In this document: piece by piece, positions 11,165 to 53,182 of the stretch
Numbering within the stretch: position 1 is the stretch's first letter
Layout: each line of letters starts with the position of its first letter
Source of the DNA: Candidatus Chlorohelix allophototropha
Lineage (GTDB): Bacteria; Chloroflexota; Chloroflexia; Chloroheliales; Chloroheliaceae
DNA: 64,000 nt
Direction of reading: 5' to 3'
Assembly: GCF_030389965.1 (NCBI RefSeq)
Contig: NZ_CP128399.1
Location: 806,001 to 870,000 of the forward strand
Notes under the pieces: generated by a model
What the model saw: only the letters and a program-made list of their open reading frames with translations
Database searches by the model: none
Told to the model about the DNA's origin: nothing
Made by a program: the position numbers and the translations under genes

Positions 11165-12940
11165 GTGACAACTGAGCAGAAATTAAATAATCAAAAAACC
11201 ATTGCTTCTTGTCATATAAAAATCGGTGGTAGCCCGGTTAGCTCCGAGATTATGGATTCTATAATGTCGATTGAAGTGAACCAGACCTTGTATCTTCCGT
11301 CTATGTTCACGATTAGGCTGCATAACGATAACTTAGCGTGGACTGACAACGCAAAGTTCAAGATAGGCAATGATGTTGTGATTTCGATGGGTTATGGCAC
11401 TGCTACTGAAGTTATGAGTGGGGAAATAACTGCAATTGAACTAGAATCTTCAATTTCCAGCTTACCCGTTCTGACGATACAGGGCTATGATAAACTACAC
11501 CGCATGCAGCGAGGACGCTTCACTCGCACTTTTAATAACTCTAAGGATAGCGACCTTGTATCTAGGCTTGCTTCCGAAAAGGGTTTATCTGCTTCAGCTT
11601 CCGATACCAGCATCGTTCACCCCTATATTCTTCAAAATAATGAATCCAACTTGGAATTTTTGCAAAGACGCGCCAAACGGATTGGGATGGAGCTATTTTT
11701 TCAAGATGGCAAGCTAAATATGCGTAAGCATGTACAGGGAAGCAAGGTAGCTACCTTATCCTATGGTGAGGATTTACTTACTTTAAATGCCAGAATTAGC
11801 TATGTAGATAATGTTACTGAGGTTCTGGTGCGGGGTTGGGATGTAAAGAAGAAAGAAGCCATTGTAGGTAAATCCACATCAGCTACAGGTTATTCTTCAC
11901 TCACTTCCAACAATGAGTCTTCGGCAAAAAAGGCTTTTGGCACAACTAAGACCGCTGCTGTTTTCAGCCCGGTTATGAGTCAGAGTGAAGCCGATAAGGT
12001 GGCAGAGGCTATCTTTGAGGAGCTTTCAGGCAGGATTATGCAGGTGGATGGGAGCGTTTTAGGTAATCCTACACTTCTACCAGGAAAATGTATTGAACTC
12101 GCCAAGATTAGTACCACCTTTAGCGGGACTTATTATTTAACCTCTTGTATCCATCGCTATGGAATTGAGGGCTATATCACCGAATTTGCAGCAAGTGGCA
12201 AACAAGCTAACACCTTTGCCGAGCAAGTTGGTGGTGGCGAGAACCATTGGGAATTATCACGCGGGGTTGTAATCGGGATCGTGACGAATCTAAATGACCC
12301 GGATAACTTGGGTCGCGTAAAGATAAAATTCCCGTGGTTACCACAGGCTGACGGTCAGGATATAGAAAGTAATTGGGCAAGAGTAGCAATGCCAATGGCA
12401 GGCAATAATAGGGGCTTCTTCTTTATGCCCGAAGTAAATGATGAGGTTCTGGTAGCTTTTGAGCAGGGCGATTTACAGCATCCCTATATTATCGGCGCAC
12501 TCTGGAACGGTAAGGATGCACCACCAGAACTAAGCCAAGCGCTTTCTAGTGGCGTGGTAAAGCAACGACTGATTAAATCCAAAAGCGGACATATTATCAC
12601 GCTAGACGAAAGCGATGATAAGCCTAAAATCAGCATTGTGGACAAAACCGGTAGCAATAAGATTATTATCGACTCGCAAAACAACACTATCACTATAGAG
12701 TCGAAAGATAAAATCAGCATAACTTCTACTACCAAAGACATAGAACTTAAGGCTGCCGCCGGGAAAGTGACCTTGGATGCAAAAGAGATTGAAATCAAAA
12801 GTAGCACTAATACGAAAATATCCGCTACTGCCAAGATGGAAGTACAAGGTTTGAATCTGGAAATGAAAGCTTCTGCCTCCGCCAAGATAGATGGCGGCGG
12901 TATGACTGAAATCAAGGGCGGATTAATCAAGCTAAATTAG
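11165..12940 (+). CDS. VgrG-like spike protein (gp27/gp5-like, Pvc8)
   Basis: This 591-residue protein has three recognisable parts. The gp27-like hub spans about residues 1-345. A gp5 OB-fold follows (about 365-450, with GIVTNLNDPDNLGRVKIKFP and DEVLVAFEQGDLQHPYIIGA). A C-terminal strand-rich stretch ends it (alternating SITSTTKDIELKAAAGKVTL, KEIEIKSS, KMEVQG), typical of the trimeric spike helix. It forms the puncturing spike at the tube tip. Translation starts at GTG 11165 after GAGGTTAAGG. No extension beyond the spike helix is present, so it carries no fused effector. Confidence 0.93.
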   Translation: MTTEQKLNNQKTIASCHIKIGGSPVSSEIMDSIMSIEVNQTLYLPSMFTIRLHNDNLAWTDNAKFKIGNDVVISMGYGTATEVMSGEITAIELESSISSLPVLTIQGYDKLHRMQRGRFTRTFNNSKDSDLVSRLASEKGLSASASDTSIVHPYILQNNESNLEFLQRRAKRIGMELFFQDGKLNMRKHVQGSKVATLSYGEDLLTLNARISYVDNVTEVLVRGWDVKKKEAIVGKSTSATGYSSLTSNNESSAKKAFGTTKTAAVFSPVMSQSEADKVAEAIFEELSGRIMQVDGSVLGNPTLLPGKCIELAKISTTFSGTYYLTSCIHRYGIEGYITEFAASGKQANTFAEQVGGGENHWELSRGVVIGIVTNLNDPDNLGRVKIKFPWLPQADGQDIESNWARVAMPMAGNNRGFFFMPEVNDEVLVAFEQGDLQHPYIIGALWNGKDAPPELSQALSSGVVKQRLIKSKSGHIITLDESDDKPKISIVDKTGSNKIIIDSQNNTITIESKDKISITSTTKDIELKAAAGKVTLDAKEIEIKSSTNTKISATAKMEVQGLNLEMKASASAKIDGGGMTEIKGGLIKLN

Positions 12941-12953
12941 GAGGTAAAAATAG

Positions 12954-43000: not shown

Positions 43001-44711
43001 GCTATGTTTGGAGCGTTCTCCTGAAGCATTAATAGGGATAATAGGTATTCAGAAAGCGGGCGGGGCTTACCTGTATCTTGACCCACAACTTCCCGCCGAA
43101 CGGCGCGAGTTTATGTTGAAAGAAGCAAAGGTGCATGCGCTTGTCACCGCTTCAGAGCTTTACCCGCTATCACCGGAGTATCTTGAGCATGTGGTTTATC
43201 TGACCGATTTTGGCGATGCTGAGATACCAATAGAAAACCCGCCAACTAGGGTTCACCCGGAGAATTTGGCATATGTGGTTTATACTTCCGGTTCAACCGG
43301 AACACCCAAAGGGGTAATGGTCTCACATGCTGCGCTACTGAATTTTACAGAAGCAGCACGACAATTGTATGCAATCACACCGCAGGATAGGGTTTTGCAA
43401 TTTGCTTCGTTGAGCTTCGATACCTCGGCGGAGGAGATATTCCCATGCCTTGCCAGTGGCGGGACTTTGGTGTTGGGTGGGAAAGATATGCTTGAAACGC
43501 CCCGCGCTTTTTTCCAGAAATGCTATGAATTGCGCATTACGGTGCTGGATTTACCCACCGCTTATTGGCACATATTGGCAGCCGAAGTGCGTATCATTGA
43601 CCCGGTTTTATTTTCAAAGTTGCGTCTAGTTATAATCGGCGGAGAGGAAGCGTACCCTACGGCTATGCTTGCGTGGCAAAGTGCAGTGGGCGATAGGGTT
43701 AAATTGCTCAACACCTACGGGCCTACCGAAGCAACTATTGTAACAACCCTTGCTGATTTGCGCGAAGTTGGAACGGGCATAGTACCCATCGGTAAAGTTA
43801 TACCGAATACAAGGGCTTACATATTAAGCCCCGAAATGCTACAGATGCCGATCGGCGCACCCGGTGAATTATATTTGTCAGGTAGCGGGTTGGCGCGTGG
43901 CTACATTAATCAGCCGGATACTACCGCCTCTGTGTTTGTGTCTGACCCTTTCAGTGAACAAAGCGGGGCGAGAATGTACCGCACCGGAGATATGGCGCGT
44001 TATCTACCAGATGGAAACATTGAATATCTGGGTAGGCGCGACCGACAGCTAAAAGTGAGAGGCTTTAGGATAGAACCGGGCGAAATCGAAGCGGTATTGA
44101 CCAGCCATCCGCTAGTTCGAGAGGCAGCAGTGCTATACTCTCATAATCAAGGTCGCTTGGTGGCGTACTTTGCAGCAAATAGCGCAGAAGCTTCTATAGT
44201 AGAAGAATTACGCCATTTTCTTGCGCGAAAATTGCCCTCTTACATGATTCCTACTCAACTTGTACAGCTTGAAGCCATGCCCCTGACAACCAATGGGAAA
44301 ATCAATCGGAATCTTCTGCCAGAACCCTTACCGGAAAGCAACAATAGGGGTATCGCGCCACGCACTTTTGAAGAAAGCCTAATTGCCCAAATTTGGGCTA
44401 ATTTACTGGGGCTGAAAGCAGACCAAATCTCGGTTTTTGATAATTTCTTTGAATTGGGCGGTCACTCTTTGCTAGGCACTCAGCTAATTTCTAAGCTAAA
44501 TAATCTTTTCGGGGTGAAAACCCCCTTACAGGCTTTGTTTGATAACCCGACTATAGACGGCTTGATGTTGGCAATTAGCCTTAGTAAGGCACAACAGCTT
44601 GCAAAGGAAAATTTATTGCTATTACTGGATGAACTTGAATATTTGGACGAAGAAGAAATAAAGATAGCTCTTGGTGAGGAATCTCCATTTTCAAATGAAC
44701 AAATCAATTGA
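40017..44711 (+). CDS. nonribosomal peptide synthetase, C-C-A-T
   Basis: This is a 1564-residue NRPS. Condensation domain 1 (about residues 41-480) has AHHIIFDAVS. Condensation-like domain 2 (about 495-918) has LHQLITDGW, in which the catalytic second His of HHxxxDG is Gln. The adenylation domain (about 945-1435) has YTSGSTGTPKGVMVSH, NTYGPTEATI, YRTGDMARY and the lysine of NGKINRNLL. A carrier domain follows (Ser about 1484 in GGHSLL). Reading the ten specificity positions by eye gives D-T-E-D-I-G-T-I-V-K; the acidic 239 and 278 positions hint at a basic amino acid. The chosen start lacks a strong ribosome site. The 17-base overlap with the next gene marks an operon. Confidence 0.93.
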   Translation: MGENNNLANRIAALSPEKRALLQKMSVEKRTPPIPDYSIFPQTHTGIVPVSFAQEQLWFLYQLDPARLDYNMPAALRLQGELNVVAMESSLHEIVQRHEILRTNFKLVDSSPAQIIAPTRGLPVKNFDLHSLPPEEREQQAQKLLESEALRPFDLENGSLIRACLLKLNQAEHILLLVAHHIIFDAVSIDIFTRELAQLYENFPNESKEVTQPPLPIQYADYARWQRQWLSGERLEKLTQYWVKHLGGSLPLLELPTDHPRPASPTLHIQTKRFVLAQELTNKLSNLGKNNKASLFMVLLAAFNVLLHRYSGQEDILVGVPIANRTQPELSQLIGYFTNTLVIRSNLSANPSFEALLEKVRDVTLAAYEHQDLPFAKLIEILRPKRESGYYPLVRVAFSHQNNAPSQAMLPGLKATNIEISNGYSSFDLAMMLQEENGVTRGNLLYSQELFESATIDEMLENFRLILETISTKPEAQLSELPLTIKPSIAKESNLTANQLLVWLGQQLQPNLPIYNEIMLFTINGALDVGRFQAAFQGLAQRNASLRTVIQELNGIPQQAFNANVSYKLDCQDFSKEAHPADALDKFVSERGRISFDFKERLFDTALIKLSEDKFAWYLCLHQLITDGWTFALLYRRMSEIYDSLTSSEEIKQEAYPDYSEFIEYEAAYRKSAQFSKATNYWDEKLKKGYSPVSFYSRPSLERASKVERVTVELGSERTQAIKAIATQKGFAALTQDMALSNLFTMLFLAYLYRISGNPVYSLGVPFHNRNTKPLKEITGLVMTVCPLRVEIQPGETFLSLAGKVQAELRQTLQFSQYVTHNSPQRKTYDLMFNYLNATYDNFAGMTAEVSLPNSGFENNSLSLQVQHFARDKGLVLYFDFNCDLFSPENKQRAIRHFTAMLDIFLSDTNRAIGQIELLDSQEVQILRKFNAASTQYQKDKPVFRLFEEHAALNPNALALESGSSKMSYRELNIRANRLAYHLQRIGIKPDSVVGLCLERSPEALIGIIGIQKAGGAYLYLDPQLPAERREFMLKEAKVHALVTASELYPLSPEYLEHVVYLTDFGDAEIPIENPPTRVHPENLAYVVYTSGSTGTPKGVMVSHAALLNFTEAARQLYAITPQDRVLQFASLSFDTSAEEIFPCLASGGTLVLGGKDMLETPRAFFQKCYELRITVLDLPTAYWHILAAEVRIIDPVLFSKLRLVIIGGEEAYPTAMLAWQSAVGDRVKLLNTYGPTEATIVTTLADLREVGTGIVPIGKVIPNTRAYILSPEMLQMPIGAPGELYLSGSGLARGYINQPDTTASVFVSDPFSEQSGARMYRTGDMARYLPDGNIEYLGRRDRQLKVRGFRIEPGEIEAVLTSHPLVREAAVLYSHNQGRLVAYFAANSAEASIVEELRHFLARKLPSYMIPTQLVQLEAMPLTTNGKINRNLLPEPLPESNNRGIAPRTFEESLIAQIWANLLGLKADQISVFDNFFELGGHSLLGTQLISKLNNLFGVKTPLQALFDNPTIDGLMLAISLSKAQQLAKENLLLLLDELEYLDEEEIKIALGEESPFSNEQIN

Positions 44712-47220
44712 GCAGCGTATAACTGAATTGTCGCCCACTAAACGCGCAGTGTTGTTGCGCCGCCTTCAGCGGTTAGTGGGCGCTGCAGATAATAATAAAA
44801 TTACTCCCAGAGGTCGGGATTCTAATATTTTCCCGCTTTCTTTCAGCCAGCAACGTTTGTGGTTTTTAGACCAACTAGAGCCGGGAAACCCCACCTTTAA
44901 TGTGCCGTTGGCGGTGCGTCTTTCACAAACTCTTAATGAAGAAGCCTTTGTCAGAAGCCTTAATGCAGTGGTGGCACGCCACGAGGTTTTACGTAGTAAC
45001 TTCGTTGTAAGGGAAGGACACCCGGTTCAGGTGATTGCTACCGCTCAGTCTGTCCCTTTTATCATAGAAGATTTGCGTACTCTTTCGGCGGAAGCGCGAG
45101 AAGCCCGCGTTAATGCGCTTGCGCTTGAGGAAGCTCAATACCGTTTTGACTTGGCGCAAGGTTCACTATTGCGGGCGCGATTATTGCGAATCGGCGTGGC
45201 TGAATACGTTTTCTTGCTCACGCTGCACCATATCATCTCGGATGGTTGGTCAATGGGATTGCTGCTTAATGAGTTGGTTACATACTATCGGGGCTTTTGC
45301 AATGGGCAATCGGTCAATTTACCGACGCTTGAAGTGCAATATGCCGATTACGCACTGTGGCAGAGAGAATGGATGTCTGGAACAGTACAGGCGCGGCAAT
45401 TGGCATACTGGAAAAAACAGCTTCAGGACGCGCCTTCACTTCTAAAATTACCGCTTGACCATCCCCGCCGCGAAGTAGAGCAATTTCGGGGCGCAACCGT
45501 TTACTTTAAGCTACCTGCACCGCTTACCCAACGCTTGAAAGAAGTGAGTCGGGAGCAGAATATAACGCTCTATATGTTATTGCTGGCAGCTTACCAGATA
45601 TTGCTATATCGCATTTCCGGGCAGCGAGATATTCTGGTAGGTACGCCGGTGGCAGGTCGCAACAAGGCAGAAACAGAGGATTTAATCGGTTTCTTTGTTA
45701 ATACGCTGGTAATGCGTACAAACTTCTCCGGGCGAGAAACTTTCAAAGAGCTATTATTGCAAGTCAGGAAAACGGCGTTGGAAGCATACGCAAATCAGGA
45801 TTTGCCTTTTGAAAAACTGGTAGAAGCGCTTCAACCCGAACGTTCTTTAAGTTATAGCCCGCTATTTCAGGTGATGTTTACCTTCTTTAACGAACCTACC
45901 CGGCGCAAACTGCGCGATACCGGGTTTGAGTGGAGCGCGTTAGAAATAGATCGGGGGCTTTCTAACCGCGACCTTACCCTGCGAATGGAAGAATTAGATA
46001 ATGTTCTGGTGGGACATCTCGAATATAATGTTGACCTTTTTGAAAACAGCACAATCCGGCGATTTATCGCGCAATTTGAAAGGTTATTGGTGCAATTGAT
46101 GGAACATCCTGATGCTAGAATTGCAGACCTTGATTTGCTTTCGGAGGAAGAAAAGCAGGCAATAGCAAAAGCCGGGCAAACTCAGGAGAAATCCAGCCGC
46201 GACAAATTTAAACAATTTCTCGGTAAACGCCCCGGTGGTCTAAACCTTTCTCAGCCTGAACTGGTGAAAATCGGAAGCCTTTCACTGGATATGACATTCC
46301 CTTTGCTGATTCAACCTAGCGTTACTGAGGTGTCATTGGTTACGTGGGCAGAGAAAAACCTTGAATTTATACAAACCAATCTTGATAAATATGGCGCAAT
46401 TCTATGGCGCAATTTCCCTGTGAATGACCCCGCAGAGTTTGAGGGATTTGCCAGAGTTATTGCGCCTGAGTTATTGGATTACGTGGAACGCTCTACTCCC
46501 AGAAATCTGGTACAGGGCAAGGTTTTCACTTCAACCTCGTACCCACCAGACCAGTATATTATGTTACACAATGAAGTTTCCTATTCGCATTGCTGGCCCA
46601 TAAAGCTTTGGTTCTACTGCCAACATGCCCCTTCACAAGGGGGCGCTACGCCTTTGGCAGATAGTCGGCTTGTTTATCAACGCCTTGACCCGACTCTAAA
46701 GGAGAAATTCATCAGCAAGCGGGTAATGTATGTCCGAAACTATGGTGAAGGGGTGGACTTGCCTTGGCAGGAAGTTTATCAGACCAATGACCCCGCCGAA
46801 GTTGAAAAATATTGTCGTGATGCCGGGATTGAATTTGAATGGAAATCAGGCAACCGCCTCAGAACTCGTCAGGTACGGCAGGCAGTAGCCCAACACCCGC
46901 GCACCGGAGAAATGGTGTGGTTTAATTCAGCCCACATGTTTCATGTTGCAGCCCATACGCCGGAGGTACGCGACTCGTTGTTGGCAATTTTTGCGCCGGA
47001 AGATTTGCCTCGAAATGTGTATTTTGGGGATGGTACTCCTATTGAGAATGACGAGATAGCCCATATAAGACAAATTTACCGCGAATGTGCTATAAGCTTC
47101 CCTTGGCAAACCGGAGATATTATGTTGGTTGATAATATGCTTTTAGCACATGGACGTGCGCCTTTTTCAGGAGAACGCAGTGTGCTGGTAGCAATGGCAG
47201 AGCCATATAGCCTGTTGTAG
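44695..47220 (+). CDS. condensation domain fused to TauD/SyrP-like dioxygenase
   Basis: In this 841-residue protein, residues about 42-482 form a condensation domain with an intact LHHIISDGWS. Residues about 516-840 form a TauD/TfdA-type Fe(II)/2-oxoglutarate oxygenase related to SyrP. The metal ligands are His625 and Glu627 in LHNEVSYS and His819 in LLAHGRAPF; the co-substrate Arg is about 828 in GERSVLVAM. SyrP-type enzymes hydroxylate a carrier-bound amino acid, usually at the beta position. No A or T domain is present, so it must act on carriers of the flanking synthetases. The ATG at 44695 overlaps the upstream gene. Confidence 0.92.
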   Translation: MNKSIEQRITELSPTKRAVLLRRLQRLVGAADNNKITPRGRDSNIFPLSFSQQRLWFLDQLEPGNPTFNVPLAVRLSQTLNEEAFVRSLNAVVARHEVLRSNFVVREGHPVQVIATAQSVPFIIEDLRTLSAEAREARVNALALEEAQYRFDLAQGSLLRARLLRIGVAEYVFLLTLHHIISDGWSMGLLLNELVTYYRGFCNGQSVNLPTLEVQYADYALWQREWMSGTVQARQLAYWKKQLQDAPSLLKLPLDHPRREVEQFRGATVYFKLPAPLTQRLKEVSREQNITLYMLLLAAYQILLYRISGQRDILVGTPVAGRNKAETEDLIGFFVNTLVMRTNFSGRETFKELLLQVRKTALEAYANQDLPFEKLVEALQPERSLSYSPLFQVMFTFFNEPTRRKLRDTGFEWSALEIDRGLSNRDLTLRMEELDNVLVGHLEYNVDLFENSTIRRFIAQFERLLVQLMEHPDARIADLDLLSEEEKQAIAKAGQTQEKSSRDKFKQFLGKRPGGLNLSQPELVKIGSLSLDMTFPLLIQPSVTEVSLVTWAEKNLEFIQTNLDKYGAILWRNFPVNDPAEFEGFARVIAPELLDYVERSTPRNLVQGKVFTSTSYPPDQYIMLHNEVSYSHCWPIKLWFYCQHAPSQGGATPLADSRLVYQRLDPTLKEKFISKRVMYVRNYGEGVDLPWQEVYQTNDPAEVEKYCRDAGIEFEWKSGNRLRTRQVRQAVAQHPRTGEMVWFNSAHMFHVAAHTPEVRDSLLAIFAPEDLPRNVYFGDGTPIENDEIAHIRQIYRECAISFPWQTGDIMLVDNMLLAHGRAPFSGERSVLVAMAEPYSLL

Positions 47221-47240: not shown

Positions 47241-50200
47241 TTGAACATAGAGCGAAGCGGGGAAAATATTTCCTCCGGCGATAAAATGAAACTGCTCTCC
47301 TTGCTGCTTGAGCAGGATGGGCTGAAGCGGGAAGAAGAATCCCGTATTGTTCCTCGGCAGGGTGTTACTAATCCTCCTCTTTCACTCATGCAAGAGCGTC
47401 TGTGGTTTTTGGAACAACTGGGAGGCTTGGGGGCAACTTATAATATTCCGGCAATTGCACGGCTAACCGGGCGCGTATCGGAAGAAGCCTTAGCTGTTAC
47501 TTTTCAGGAAATCGTTCGCCGCCACGAGGTTTTACGCACCACCTTTTCTAGTGAATCCGGCAGACCAGTACAGGTTATACACCCATCGTCCGGTTTCCAG
47601 TTGGAAAAGGTGGATTTGACCGGATTCCCTGAACAGGCACGCGAGGTGGAAGCGTGGAAAATAGCCAAAGAAGAAGCAACCCGCACATTTGATTTGCAAA
47701 ACGGTTCACTTTTTAGGGTTAAACTGCTCCGTTTACACTCACAGGATTATTTTTTGCTTATGACCATGCATCATATTGTCGGCGATGCTTGGTCGCGCTA
47801 CGTGCTTATCCGGGAAATCACCTTGCTCTACCGCGCTTATGCGGGAGGTGAAGTTTCACCCTTGCCAGAACCACCCATCCAGTATGCCGATTATGCAATC
47901 TGGCAAAGACATTGGTTCAGTGAAGAAAAACACAGTGTTCAGCTTGAATACTGGCGCAATAAACTTCAAGGCGCACCCTCAATTCTGCAATTTCCCACCG
48001 ACCGCCCCAGACCGCCGATTCGCTCCTATCGGGGCGGTAGGGTAAATATCGTTTTTCCGTTAGAGCTACAAACTGCCTTAAATAACCTGAGCAGGCAACA
48101 AAACGCTACTATCTTCATGACTTTGCTGGCGGCTTTTCAGGTGTTGCTATGCCGTTACAGCGGGCAAGATGATATTGTAATCGGTTCGCCCATTGCCAAC
48201 CGCACTCGCCTTGAAACTGAGAATCTTATAGGTTTTTTCGTGAATACGCTGGTGTTGCGTGGCAACCTGTCCGGCAACCCTACTTTTCTGGAACTGTTGC
48301 ACCGCACTTCTGAAACAGCATTAGAGGCTTATGCTCATCAGGAGTTGCCCTTTGAAAAGCTAGTTGAGGAATTGCACCCTTCCCGCGATTTGAGCTATCA
48401 GCCTTTGTTTCAGGTAATGTTTGTTTTACAAAATGCCCCGGTAGAGCCTGTGATTATGCCCGATTTGGTTATCCAGCCCTTATCCATTGACAATAACACC
48501 GCTAAGTTCGATCTGCTGCTTGACCTAGCCGAAACCGAGCAAGGTTTGAAAGGTTATCTGGAATACAGTAGCGATTTGTTTGATGAATCCAGCATCAAGA
48601 ATTTGCTTGAGCATTTTAAAATCTTGCTAGAAGGAATTGTAGCCAACCCAAACCGCAGAATCGGCGAATTGCCGCTCTTACCACCGCAAGAATATAATCG
48701 CCAAATTCTGGAGTGGAATAATACCAAAGAGTCTTTTCCTCTTGACGCTTGCTTTCACCACCTCTTTTCCGAGCAAACTGCCCGTTCGCCTCAAAGTATT
48801 GCGCTGATCTTTGAGAATCAGCAACTTACCTATGCCGAACTTGAAGCGCGTTCCAATCAACTTGGACACTATCTGCAAACGTTGGGAGTGAGCGCGGAGG
48901 TAGTAGTGGGGTTATGCGTGGAACGCTCTCTCGAAATGGTTATCGGGCTATTGGGTATTCTCAAAGCGGGTGGCGCGTATGCTCCGCTTGACCCTGCCTA
49001 CCCTCAGCATCGTATTGAGATTATGCTGGAAGACAGCCATGCCCCAATTTTATTAACCCAAAGCCATCTTCAAAATTTGATGCCATCACATGGCGCGCAG
49101 GTTATTTATCTCGATCAGGATTGGTCTAAGATTGCAGAGTATCCGCAAACGCCTCCCCCTGATTATTGTACTCCTGATAATCTGGCTTATGTGGTTTTTA
49201 CTTCCGGCTCTACCGGAAGACCCAAAGGCATATTGGCGCATCATCGCGGTTCGCTTAATCATCTGCTTTATACCCGCCGAGCGTATAATATTTCTCCAGC
49301 GGATACGATTTTACAGAATGCCTCGTTGGTTTCGGATGCCTCGATAGAAGACCTTATCGGTACGCTTATAGCTGGGTGCAAGGTGGTACTGGTTAGCTCT
49401 AGCGATGCCAAAGACCCATCCGCGCTGGTTAGAACAATTGATGAGCAAGCGGTTACAGCGTTGCTGGCAACCACTCCCCGCTTTTTAGGTCAATTGGTAG
49501 AAGCGGCAGAACGGGTTGGTTATCATAGCCACTCTTTAAGGCTCATTTTTGTAAATGGTGAAGCGCTATATCATCAGGAATGTCAGGCAGTACAGCGCGT
49601 TTTTGGCAAACAAGTTTTGGTAGTAAACCAATACGGTCCGACCGAAGGGGCTATAACCTGTAGCGATTACCGCGTGACTAGCACAAACCCAGAGCAGGGC
49701 GCGGTGTCATTGGGACGACCGATTTCAAACACCGAATTTTATCTGCTAGATAATAATTACCAGCCTGTGCCATTAGGAGTTGTAGGGGAAATTTTTATCG
49801 GTGGAGTTGGGTTAGCGCGTGGTTATATCGGGCGACCCGACCTAAGCGCAGAGCGTTTCGTGCCGCATCCCTTTAGCATAATTCCGGGAGCGCGTTTATA
49901 TCGCACCGGAGATTTGGCACGTCTAAACCCGAAAGGTTCTTTTGAGTATGTAGGTCGAGCAGACCATCAAGTAAAGGTGCGAGGCTATCGGGTTGAACCG
50001 GGCGAGATAGAAGCGGCTTTAGCGGCATATTCTAAGGTTTCGCAATGTGCGATATTGGCGCGGGAGGACATACCGGGCGATAAACGCTTGGTTGGTTATC
50101 TGGTGGCAAAAGGTGTTCAACCGGAAGTTGAGGAATTAAGGGAATATTTGAAAAGTCAGCTTCCAAGTTACATGATACCTTCATCTTTTATCATGCTAGA

Positions 50201-51752
50201 TTCTTTCCCACTTACTCCTAACGGCAAGGTTGATAGAAAAGCGTTACCTGCTCCGGGACAATTTCGCCCCAACTTGAGGCAAAGTTATAATGCCCCGCGC
50301 AATGAGTTGGAAGAAAAGTTGGTTAGCCTGTGGGCTGAGGCGTTGTCGCTAGAAGAAGTCGGTATTTACGACAATTTCTTTGAGTTGGGTGGTCACTCCC
50401 TCTTGGCAATGCAATTGACCTCTCGTATATCCGGCACAATTGGAAAAGAGGTTTCGGTAAAATTGCTGTTTTTGTACCCAACTATCGCCAGTATGGCTGT
50501 TGCTCTGGCAAATACTACTCCGGCGGAGGTAAGCGGTTTAAGTATCGTACCCCCGAAACAAGCGGATACGTCCCATCTAACTATTGAGCGGCTTCCCTTA
50601 TTGCCAAGAGTTTTGAGCGGGGAAATTGCTCCGGCGCAGTCGGCGGCATTGTCATACCTACCCTCGGATTTACTAAAATTAACCGGGCTTGCCACTGCCG
50701 ATATTTTACAAAATTGGTTCGAGCAGCGCCCTATCCTAAACGGATTTATGAATACCCCTGCCGGGAGGATTGCGCTCATTTTGCTGCCGATTTTTGGTAC
50801 TGATTTATACAATGACCAACCGGGTTTGTTGAAAATGATAGGGGAAGGTGTTCAACTTGCCGGACAAGTAGGCGCGAAAACCGTTTCTCTAACCGGACTC
50901 CTGCCATCTGCTACTAATTATGGTCGCGCTGTGTTGGAATCATTAGATAAAAGTGTGAACTTGCCCGCCGTAACTACCGGACATGCTACGACTGCGGCTT
51001 CGGTAGTTTTATCTCTCAAGCATATTCTTTCTGAAAGCGGGCGAGAACTACCCAACGAACGGGTAGTTTGTTTGGGTCTGGGTTCAATCGGGCTTACCGT
51101 ATTGCGCCTGATGTTGCAAGTGTTACCACATCCCCAAGAGCTTTGGCTTTGCGATTTATATAGCCGGAGAGAGCATTTGAAAAAAATAGCCCATGAAGTG
51201 GTAAATCAAAGTGGCTTTAAGGGAAATATCCGATTGTATGAATCTAGCCCTACCGTACCGGATGCAATATACGAAGCTTCCTTGATAATCGGCGCAAGCA
51301 ACGTACCGGGCATTATAGAAACTACGCGCCTCAAAGCGGGTACGCTGCTGGTAGATGATTCTGCGCCCCATTGCTTTGAGCCTGAAAAAGCCATCCGGCG
51401 ATTTGAGCAGCAAGGCGATATTCTCTTTACCGAAGGAGGGACGCTTAAAGCGCCCTTTGCAATTGCACAACAACGCTATTTGCCGGAAGCGGTAGAAGCG
51501 AGGATTCCGCCAGAGCAATTTGAGGCGATAACCGCTTATAAACCGTTCAATATTGCAGGCTGTGTTTTATCCAGTATTTTAAGTACAGACGCTGTGGGTT
51601 TAGAACCGACCATTGGCGAGATTCGAGTCGATACAGCTTTGCAACATTACAAGCGGTTGGAAGAATTAGGCTATGGCGCAGCAGAATTGCATTGCAATAA
51701 TTATGAGCTTTCCGAGGAGCGGGTCAGGGCATTTCGCGAAAATCAGGCTTAA
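47241..51752 (+). CDS. nonribosomal peptide synthetase, C-A-T with acyl-ACP-reductase-like release domain
   Basis: This is a 1503-residue NRPS. The condensation domain (about residues 44-480) has MHHIVGDAWS. The adenylation domain (about 504-1003) has FTSGSTGRPKGILAHH, NQYGPTEGAI, YRTGDLARL and NGKVDRKAL. The carrier domain (about 1017-1087) has GGHSLL. The C-terminal part (about 1107-1500) is not a thioesterase or SDR-type reductase. It has TGLLPSATNYG, TTGHATTAASVV, a Rossmann GLGSIG (about 1279-1284) and Cys about 1441 in FNIAGCVLSS, which I align with cyanobacterial acyl-ACP reductase (FACFAE). Specificity positions by eye are D-A-E-L-F-N-Q-I-T-K, unlike codes I know. The start is TTG 47241 behind GAGAGGATAAG. 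Confidence 0.9.
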   Translation: MNIERSGENISSGDKMKLLSLLLEQDGLKREEESRIVPRQGVTNPPLSLMQERLWFLEQLGGLGATYNIPAIARLTGRVSEEALAVTFQEIVRRHEVLRTTFSSESGRPVQVIHPSSGFQLEKVDLTGFPEQAREVEAWKIAKEEATRTFDLQNGSLFRVKLLRLHSQDYFLLMTMHHIVGDAWSRYVLIREITLLYRAYAGGEVSPLPEPPIQYADYAIWQRHWFSEEKHSVQLEYWRNKLQGAPSILQFPTDRPRPPIRSYRGGRVNIVFPLELQTALNNLSRQQNATIFMTLLAAFQVLLCRYSGQDDIVIGSPIANRTRLETENLIGFFVNTLVLRGNLSGNPTFLELLHRTSETALEAYAHQELPFEKLVEELHPSRDLSYQPLFQVMFVLQNAPVEPVIMPDLVIQPLSIDNNTAKFDLLLDLAETEQGLKGYLEYSSDLFDESSIKNLLEHFKILLEGIVANPNRRIGELPLLPPQEYNRQILEWNNTKESFPLDACFHHLFSEQTARSPQSIALIFENQQLTYAELEARSNQLGHYLQTLGVSAEVVVGLCVERSLEMVIGLLGILKAGGAYAPLDPAYPQHRIEIMLEDSHAPILLTQSHLQNLMPSHGAQVIYLDQDWSKIAEYPQTPPPDYCTPDNLAYVVFTSGSTGRPKGILAHHRGSLNHLLYTRRAYNISPADTILQNASLVSDASIEDLIGTLIAGCKVVLVSSSDAKDPSALVRTIDEQAVTALLATTPRFLGQLVEAAERVGYHSHSLRLIFVNGEALYHQECQAVQRVFGKQVLVVNQYGPTEGAITCSDYRVTSTNPEQGAVSLGRPISNTEFYLLDNNYQPVPLGVVGEIFIGGVGLARGYIGRPDLSAERFVPHPFSIIPGARLYRTGDLARLNPKGSFEYVGRADHQVKVRGYRVEPGEIEAALAAYSKVSQCAILAREDIPGDKRLVGYLVAKGVQPEVEELREYLKSQLPSYMIPSSFIMLDSFPLTPNGKVDRKALPAPGQFRPNLRQSYNAPRNELEEKLVSLWAEALSLEEVGIYDNFFELGGHSLLAMQLTSRISGTIGKEVSVKLLFLYPTIASMAVALANTTPAEVSGLSIVPPKQADTSHLTIERLPLLPRVLSGEIAPAQSAALSYLPSDLLKLTGLATADILQNWFEQRPILNGFMNTPAGRIALILLPIFGTDLYNDQPGLLKMIGEGVQLAGQVGAKTVSLTGLLPSATNYGRAVLESLDKSVNLPAVTTGHATTAASVVLSLKHILSESGRELPNERVVCLGLGSIGLTVLRLMLQVLPHPQELWLCDLYSRREHLKKIAHEVVNQSGFKGNIRLYESSPTVPDAIYEASLIIGASNVPGIIETTRLKAGTLLVDDSAPHCFEPEKAIRRFEQQGDILFTEGGTLKAPFAIAQQRYLPEAVEARIPPEQFEAITAYKPFNIAGCVLSSILSTDAVGLEPTIGEIRVDTALQHYKRLEELGYGAAELHCNNYELSEERVRAFRENQA

Positions 51753-53182
51753 TCGCGTAATAGGTCGAGAGATAACTCATTCAAGCGTAATTCAGGCTGG
51801 CGGACTATATGCTGTAATAAATTCTCATAATTTTGCGCCAAGCGAATTATGAAAGCATCCGAATATAAAGCTGTGGCATATTGCAACCAGCCGACCAGCC
51901 TATTGTCTCTTTCTTCCATAATCAGGTTTAAATCGAAGCGCACCAACCCAGTTTCAAATTCTAGCGGGCTTAGTCTTAGCCCTTTAATTTCCAGTCGTTC
52001 GCGAGATGGAAAATTGCTGAACTCAAAGCGAGTTTGGAAAAAGGGATGGCTGGCATTATTACCCGGTTTCAAGGCTTCCACTAGCTTCACAAAGGGCATA
52101 TCTTGATGAGCAAAGGCTTCTAGGCAAACTTTATTCATAAGGCTTAATATTTGTTTGAAGCTGGAATTACCTGAAAAATCAGCCCGGATTACCAGATTAT
52201 TGACAAAACAACCCAACAACGCTTCCGCCTCGACTGTGCTACGGTTAGCGACCGGAGTACCAAGCGCAATATCCTCTTGTCCACTATATAGATTTATAAG
52301 CGCGGCGAAGGCTGACAATAGAAGGGTAAAAAGAGTAACCCCTTCCTGTTGGCTCAGACGTTTGAGCGCGCTTGATAAGTCTTCAGAAAGTTCAAGGCTA
52401 TAGCTCTTTCCGGCATAATCTGGGTTATTTGGTCTCGCTTCTCCAGCCAATGAGGGCTGTACTTCTGGTAAACCGAATAATTGATTACTCCAATAAGCTA
52501 ATTGCTTATCAAGCTCGCCTTGTAACCAGTTACGTTGCCACAGCGTATAATCGGGATATTGTATAGGCAACTCCGGCAATGGCGAAGAATTTCCATTAGA
52601 AAAAGCGGGGTATAACACCGCCAGTTCCTTTATAAACAATCCGGTTGACCAACCGTCCGCAATAATATGGTGCACTACTAGCGCCAGCACATGGCGAGTA
52701 TCCGTATGTTTTAGCAAGGCTGCTCTTATTAATGGAACACAGTTAAGGTCAAAGAGTTTGTGAGCCTGGTGCACTGCCAGCTTTTCGGTTTCAATATACT
52801 GTTCTGCTTCATTTACCACCGACAAATCATAATAGTTAAGTTCAAATACAGGCTCAGGATTAATCTGCTGGCAAAGCGTACCATCAATTAAAGAAAAGGC
52901 GGTGCGCCATGCCGCATGCCGCCGTACTATTTCTCTCAAACTTTCTTCGAGAGAAGCTCTATTCAGCTTGCCTTCCAAAATTAGTGCGAAGGCTGAATTG
53001 TAGAAAGGGCTGTTTGGCGCTTGTTGGCAACGCTTCCAGACCCATTCTTGCGAATAGGATGCCGGTATTAGCTCGCTAGGGTTATGCTTTGGAATTGCGT
53101 CGGTAGCTGAGGAGGCTAAACCTTCGGCTTGGATAAGACGTGCCAACAAAGCTAGTTTCTCTTGGTTATCGGTTCCACTCAT
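51749..53182 (-). CDS. stand-alone condensation domain protein
   Basis: This 477-residue single NRPS condensation domain has an intact VVHHIIADGWSTG, with YSQEWVWKRCQQAPNSPFYN at the start and GTPVANRSTVEAEALLGCFV later. No other domains are present. It is convergent with the preceding NRPS gene, and their ends overlap by 4 bases. Free-standing condensation proteins can release, cyclise or amidate carrier-bound intermediates. Here it could join an amine to the chain or offload it, but which is not visible from the sequence. Confidence 0.9.
   Translation of the reverse strand: MSGTDNQEKLALLARLIQAEGLASSATDAIPKHNPSELIPASYSQEWVWKRCQQAPNSPFYNSAFALILEGKLNRASLEESLREIVRRHAAWRTAFSLIDGTLCQQINPEPVFELNYYDLSVVNEAEQYIETEKLAVHQAHKLFDLNCVPLIRAALLKHTDTRHVLALVVHHIIADGWSTGLFIKELAVLYPAFSNGNSSPLPELPIQYPDYTLWQRNWLQGELDKQLAYWSNQLFGLPEVQPSLAGEARPNNPDYAGKSYSLELSEDLSSALKRLSQQEGVTLFTLLLSAFAALINLYSGQEDIALGTPVANRSTVEAEALLGCFVNNLVIRADFSGNSSFKQILSLMNKVCLEAFAHQDMPFVKLVEALKPGNNASHPFFQTRFEFSNFPSRERLEIKGLRLSPLEFETGLVRFDLNLIMEERDNRLVGWLQYATALYSDAFIIRLAQNYENLLQHIVRQPELRLNELSLDLLRD

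Follow-up and report, generated by a model that had tools for sequence, protein, structure and literature searches.

Terminal primary amides are found in hectoramide B, vatiamides E and F, and carmabin A (PMC10949194). In the synthetases for hectoramide and vatiamide, the domain that follows the last PCP was proposed to carry out amidation by ammonolysis, and its enzymology was called unstudied (PMC10949194). These terminal "amidotransferase" domains, borne by VatR (vatiamide) and HcaD (hectoramide B), replace the thioesterase after the PCP of the last module. The domain order of HcaD, C-A-NMT-PCP-AMT, is also that of a Moorena locus (L041), C-A-(MT)-T-TAD, whose terminal domain shares about 90% identity with the TAD of the carmabin pathway and is homologous to the domain described here.

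Five PDB entries released in February 2025 (9E4S, 9E4U, 9E4X, 9E50, and 9E56) are entitled "TAD from Carmabin Biosynthetic Pathway". According to the titles, the crystals contain NAD or NADH, and in 9E56 Cys2238 is disulfide-bonded to dephospho-CoA, which indicates that a CoA-like thiol reaches this residue. By our inference, TAD is short for "terminal amidation domain"; a literature search on carmabin enzymology and amidation domains gave no paper on the TAD mechanism. Other enzymes of related fold act on acyl thioesters. The catalytic Cys of cyanobacterial acyl-ACP reductase (AAR) accepts the acyl group, which then receives a hydride from NADPH (PMC7089970), and PigE and the NADH-dependent reductase domain of TamH are AAR-like thioester reductases (PMC8341465, PMC9594044).

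The DNA analyzed here (the window) is a stretch of 64,000 nucleotides from Candidatus Chlorohelix allophototropha, a member of the Chloroflexota (NCBI RefSeq assembly GCF_030389965.1, contig NZ_CP128399.1, positions 806,001 to 870,000). It contains an NRPS gene (47241-51752) with the domain order C-A-T-TAD, the third of a co-directional set, after genes for C-C-A-T and C-TauD proteins (Table 1). A cytochrome-b-like gene and lysA lie outside the NRPS gene set. The C-TauD gene (44671-47220), located between two NRPS genes, also lacks an adenylation domain, and its product is possibly a trans-acting hydroxylase. The terminal domain is likened to those of VatR and HcaD by description and domain order, and the module here lacks a methyltransferase. 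When the adenylation codes were read by eye, neither fitted a confidently nameable substrate. Auriculamide, from Herpetosiphon, was considered as an independent product link and gave no support, its reported building blocks including a methylmalonyl-derived ethane unit.

Table 1. Features of the NRPS locus, in coordinates of the window; residue numbers refer to the 1503-aa NRPS.
Feature	Position	Strand	Evidence
Upstream NRPS, C-C-A-T, 1574 aa	39987..44711	+	Pfam; sequence
Upstream C domain fused to TauD-type Fe/2-oxoglutarate dioxygenase, without carrier, 849 aa	44671..47220	+	Pfam
NRPS gene, C-A-T-TAD, 1503 aa, TTG start, uninterrupted	47241..51752	+	ORF and Pfam
Condensation domain, residues 46-486	47376..48698	+	PF00668, E 3e-108
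Adenylation domain, residues 509-996	48765..50228	+	PF00501 and PF13193
Carrier (T/PCP), residues 1025-1086, FFELGGHSL, pantetheine Ser intact	50313..50498	+	PF00550, E 1.6e-13; sequence
AAR-like terminal domain, carmabin-TAD homologue, residues ~1108-1503 (~396 residues)	50562..51749	+	Sequence and structure matches
TTGH motif, residues 1245-1248	50973..50984	+	Alignment; His in 43/45 TAD-like relatives, Asn in AAR
GLGSIG dinucleotide-binding loop, residues 1279-1284	51075..51092	+	Glycines invariant, 45/45
Asp1305, end of Rossmann strand 2	51153..51155	+	Asp in 45/45; gap opposite in AAR
Asp-Asp-Ser, residues 1372-1374, invariant in TAD-like domains	51354..51362	+	Alignment; D-G-G in AAR
Cys1441 in NIAGCVLSS, proposed acyl-accepting nucleophile	51561..51563	+	Equivalents: AAR Cys294, carmabin Cys2238
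Lone condensation domain (477 aa), converging tail to tail on the TAD-ending NRPS	51749..53182	-	Pfam

Pfam gave no match in this NRPS beyond residue 1086 and no thioesterase match anywhere in it. An SDR-type R domain was found neither by Pfam after residue 1086 nor by NCBIfam on the terminal domain (E-values up to 10), and the aminotransferase typical of PigE and TamH is absent from the protein, in which Pfam finds C, A, and T domains only. The Pfam and NCBIfam searches thus agree with a preliminary description of this DNA, which had placed directly after the carrier a domain that is neither a thioesterase nor an SDR-type R domain. The canonical R domain (SDR family, NAD_binding_4 / thioester reductase) shares with it the position at the end of an NRPS but belongs to a different family.

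The only NCBIfam matches to the terminal domain were PigE (E 4.5e-12; 45 bits against a required 850) and SbnB (E 1.5e-4 over about 120 residues of the Rossmann part; 20.9 bits against a required 326.9), each far under its cut-off. TIGR04058, the profile for cyanobacterial AAR (curated cut-off 449.7 bits), left the domain unmatched at E-values up to 10, and a profile built on nine relatives reached PigE at E 2e-10 and cyanobacterial AAR at E 3e-6. In a phmmer search of PDB sequences, chains labelled "Amino acid adenylation domain protein" were matched at E 7e-102; the carmabin TAD chain aligns without gaps to residues 12-400 of the query, with Cys1441 opposite Cys2238.

A structure model of the terminal domain was built with AlphaFold2 from an input of 36 relatives (mean pLDDT 92.4, pTM 0.92), and its structure matches fell into three tiers. 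The five carmabin TAD entries came first (Z 55-57, 43% identity, 382-393 residues), with a Foldseek E-value of 3e-49 and an rmsd of about 2 Å over some 390 residues; AAR followed (Z 29.5-31, with about 31 for 6JZY; about 317 residues, 16-18% identity); and no other match rose above about Z 14, with glutamyl-tRNA reductase at 13.8, shikimate/quinate dehydrogenase at 13.2, and SbnB at 12.9. These tiers, together with the profile matches, identify the fold as AAR-like and the family as that of the carmabin TAD. The resemblance to AAR noticed earlier from the sequence is not due to chance, given the phmmer match, the reach of the nine-relative profile, and the invariant Cys opposite the catalytic Cys of AAR. 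The domain shares with the carmabin TAD its full-length homology, fold, Cys, dinucleotide loop, and place after the last NRPS carrier; it differs in the 43% identity and from a cyanobacterial protein with other upstream modules and another product.

Within the ORF translation, the GLGSIG loop, the VTTGHATTAASVV segment, and Cys1441 all occur where they had been reported, VTTGHATTAASVV running from residue 1244 onward and TTGHATT from 1245. Cys1441 is invariant in the 36 relatives and in all 45 intact ones, as are in the latter Asp1305, Asp1372, Asp1373, Ser1374, and the three loop glycines; His1248 is retained in 43 of these 45. In the multiple alignment, Cys1441 falls on the catalytic Cys of four out of four AARs. 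Runs of hhalign against AARs covered the first three quarters of the domain and ended short of the Cys, and the correspondence, already proposed in the preliminary description, is drawn from the multiple alignment and the structure match.

AAR (6JZQ, 6JZU, 6JZY, and 6JZZ) thus resembles the terminal domain in fold, position of the Cys, and dinucleotide cleft, but it is a stand-alone enzyme with a fatty acyl substrate that binds NADPH with three arginines. Around the active site, AAR has Asn in place of His1248, Gly-Gly in place of Asp1373-Ser1374, and Tyr247 in place of Ala1375, a position that varies among TADs. The AAR residues R189 and R193, which serve the NADPH phosphate, are replaced by Ser and His, with Asp1305 beside them. 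In Rossmann enzymes, an acid at such a place is the usual sign of NAD(H) preference, and a site with Asp1305 is expected to prefer NAD(H) to NADP(H). Judging from sequence, GLGSIG and Asp1305 would supply the dinucleotide site of the carmabin type. NADPH, the cofactor first suggested, is therefore unlikely, given the invariant Asp1305 and the NAD or NADH of the carmabin crystals. The N-terminal domain of PigE and the C-terminal domain of TamH are likewise AAR-like and thioester-handling, with a conserved Cys; unlike the domain here, they are aminotransferase fusions, and their sequence similarity to it is weak.

Single-sequence scans of genome contigs and viral contigs gave no matches, nor did tblastn against phages; an alignment-based scan gave 39 loci. 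Most of these encode an NRPS that ends in a carrier and then the TAD-like domain; carrier-TAD NRPSs of this kind are spread over Cyanobacteria, Chloroflexota, Planctomycetota, Verrucomicrobiota, Gemmatimonadota, Fibrobacterota, Acidobacteriota, and Bacteroidota. A contig of Chloroflexaceae SM2_1_1 (L055) carries a match, and within the window's own order one genome out of five, the present one, bears a TAD. Stand-alone TAD-like proteins were found in Erwinia, Pantoea, Hahella, and Robbsia. In the tree, the terminal domain lies inside a large clade with the carmabin TAD, on a long branch whose exact place is weakly supported, and AAR stands beyond a very long branch.

Several arrangements depart from the common one. 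At L004-L009 and L032 (3856-16167), from a Streptomyces plasmid and a same-class genus with genomes of 6-7 Mb, the last carrier and the TAD-like domain are separated by a C domain; here either the TAD takes the chain from the carrier of another protein or the C domain is a docking unit. At L062 (T 2847-2914, TAD from 3334) and L065 (T 509-577, TAD from 1069), an inserted domain of about 420-490 residues without C, A, or T match separates carrier and TAD. The 578-residue product of L003 (1135-2868) looks like an intact TAD-like domain preceded by a short carrier-like stretch, and by eye shows no other NRPS domain in frame. Stand-alone TAD-like proteins adjoin large NRPS-type genes at L031 (14863-16155), L060, L061, and L064. 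The neighbors of the stand-alone Pantoea gene also include a ketosynthase protein and a MupA-type luciferase-like monooxygenase, and the surroundings in Pantoea, Erwinia, and Hahella look like one conserved cluster. Finally, eight loci of the same phylum (L010, L011, L012, L026, L027, L028, L029, and L030, in genomes G344, G350, G362, and G368 of 10.7-13.7 Mb) encode stand-alone homologues of 420-437 aa, as many as three in one genome among these loci. Cys, GxGxxG loop, and Asp-Asp pair have all been lost from these proteins, which are apparently non-catalytic paralogues.

Taken together, these comparisons suggest, if by no wide measure, that the terminal domain acts in chain release as a member of the carmabin TAD type and frees its product as a C-terminal primary amide. 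The finished peptide would pass from the carrier pantetheine to Cys1441, forming a peptidyl-Cys thioester, as the AAR mechanism and the disulfide of the carmabin Cys with dephospho-CoA suggest. NAD(H) would occupy the adjoining Rossmann cleft, as indicated by GLGSIG and Asp1305 and by the NAD/NADH complexes of the carmabin TAD. Attack by ammonia would then free the peptide, most probably as the primary amide, by analogy with relatives and with the hectoramide/vatiamide proposal. An amide is likelier than an aldehyde because carmabin A has a primary amide at its end and the terminal domains of the vatiamide and hectoramide synthetases were proposed to amidate. The AcpS-size and the Sfp-size phosphopantetheinyl transferase encoded in the genome, one of each, also count towards release of the carmabin TAD type. 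Against the amide proposal stand the invariant NAD(H) site, which is unexpected for simple ammonolysis, the identity of only 43% to the carmabin TAD, and the long, locally weakly supported branch of the domain.

The neighboring genes do not discriminate between amide and aldehyde release. Downstream of about 15 related loci, no recurring aldehyde-using or ammonia-supplying partner was found. At a single locus (L038), a gene for a glutamine-dependent NAD synthetase (CN_hydrolase and NAD_synthase; 11266-12945) begins 84 bases past a TAD-ending NRPS, and its product is a possible source of NAD and ammonia.

Reduction of the peptidyl-Cys1441 thioester by NADH to a free peptide aldehyde, in the way that AAR, PigE, and TamH treat acyl thioesters, is a less likely but serious alternative. 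AAR is the nearest fold outside the TADs, PigE and AAR are the enzymes reached by profiles, PigE and TamH show that AAR-like domains can act as thioester reductases, and both the catalytic Cys and the dinucleotide site are invariant. The characterized relatives of the same architecture, however, belong to pathways with amide-ending products, the neighbors of the AAR active site are replaced, and an aldehyde-processing gene recurs neither here nor in the relatives scanned; the aldehyde favored in the preliminary description is thus the less likely product. A redox-neutral amide synthase, in which the thioester is reduced by NADH, the resulting aldehyde captures ammonia, and the carbinolamine is oxidized to the amide by the bound NAD+, would reconcile the invariant Cys and NAD(H) site with amide-ending products and with the NAD or NADH of the carmabin crystals; it needs more chemical steps than ammonolysis and seems improbable. 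An ornithine-cyclodeaminase-, SbnB-, or shikimate-dehydrogenase-like domain without catalytic Cys, the outcome named beforehand as contrary to the AAR likeness, is hardly credible, since the weak partial SbnB match is outweighed by the structure scores (Z about 13, where AAR reaches 31 and the TAD 56) and by the invariance of the Cys.

No characterized example of such a fusion had been known to the preliminary description. The homologous carmabin TAD was solved in 2025 and a similar domain has been described for hectoramide and vatiamide (PMC10949194), and the terminal domain of this NRPS is a Chloroflexota addition to a known, mechanistically unsettled family of release domains, not its first example. 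The TAD-like family escapes Pfam and takes the place of the thioesterase in NRPSs of many phyla; because it is missed in that position, product predictions for TAD-bearing clusters are probably wrong. Peptide aldehydes act as protease-inhibiting warheads, and C-terminal amides improve stability and uptake. The conserved Cys together with the NAD(H) site raises the direct question of whether these domains carry out reduction, ammonolysis, or both. If the redox-neutral route were true, it would mean that at least eight bacterial phyla share a chain-release chemistry based on an AAR-like fold with tightly held NAD(H).
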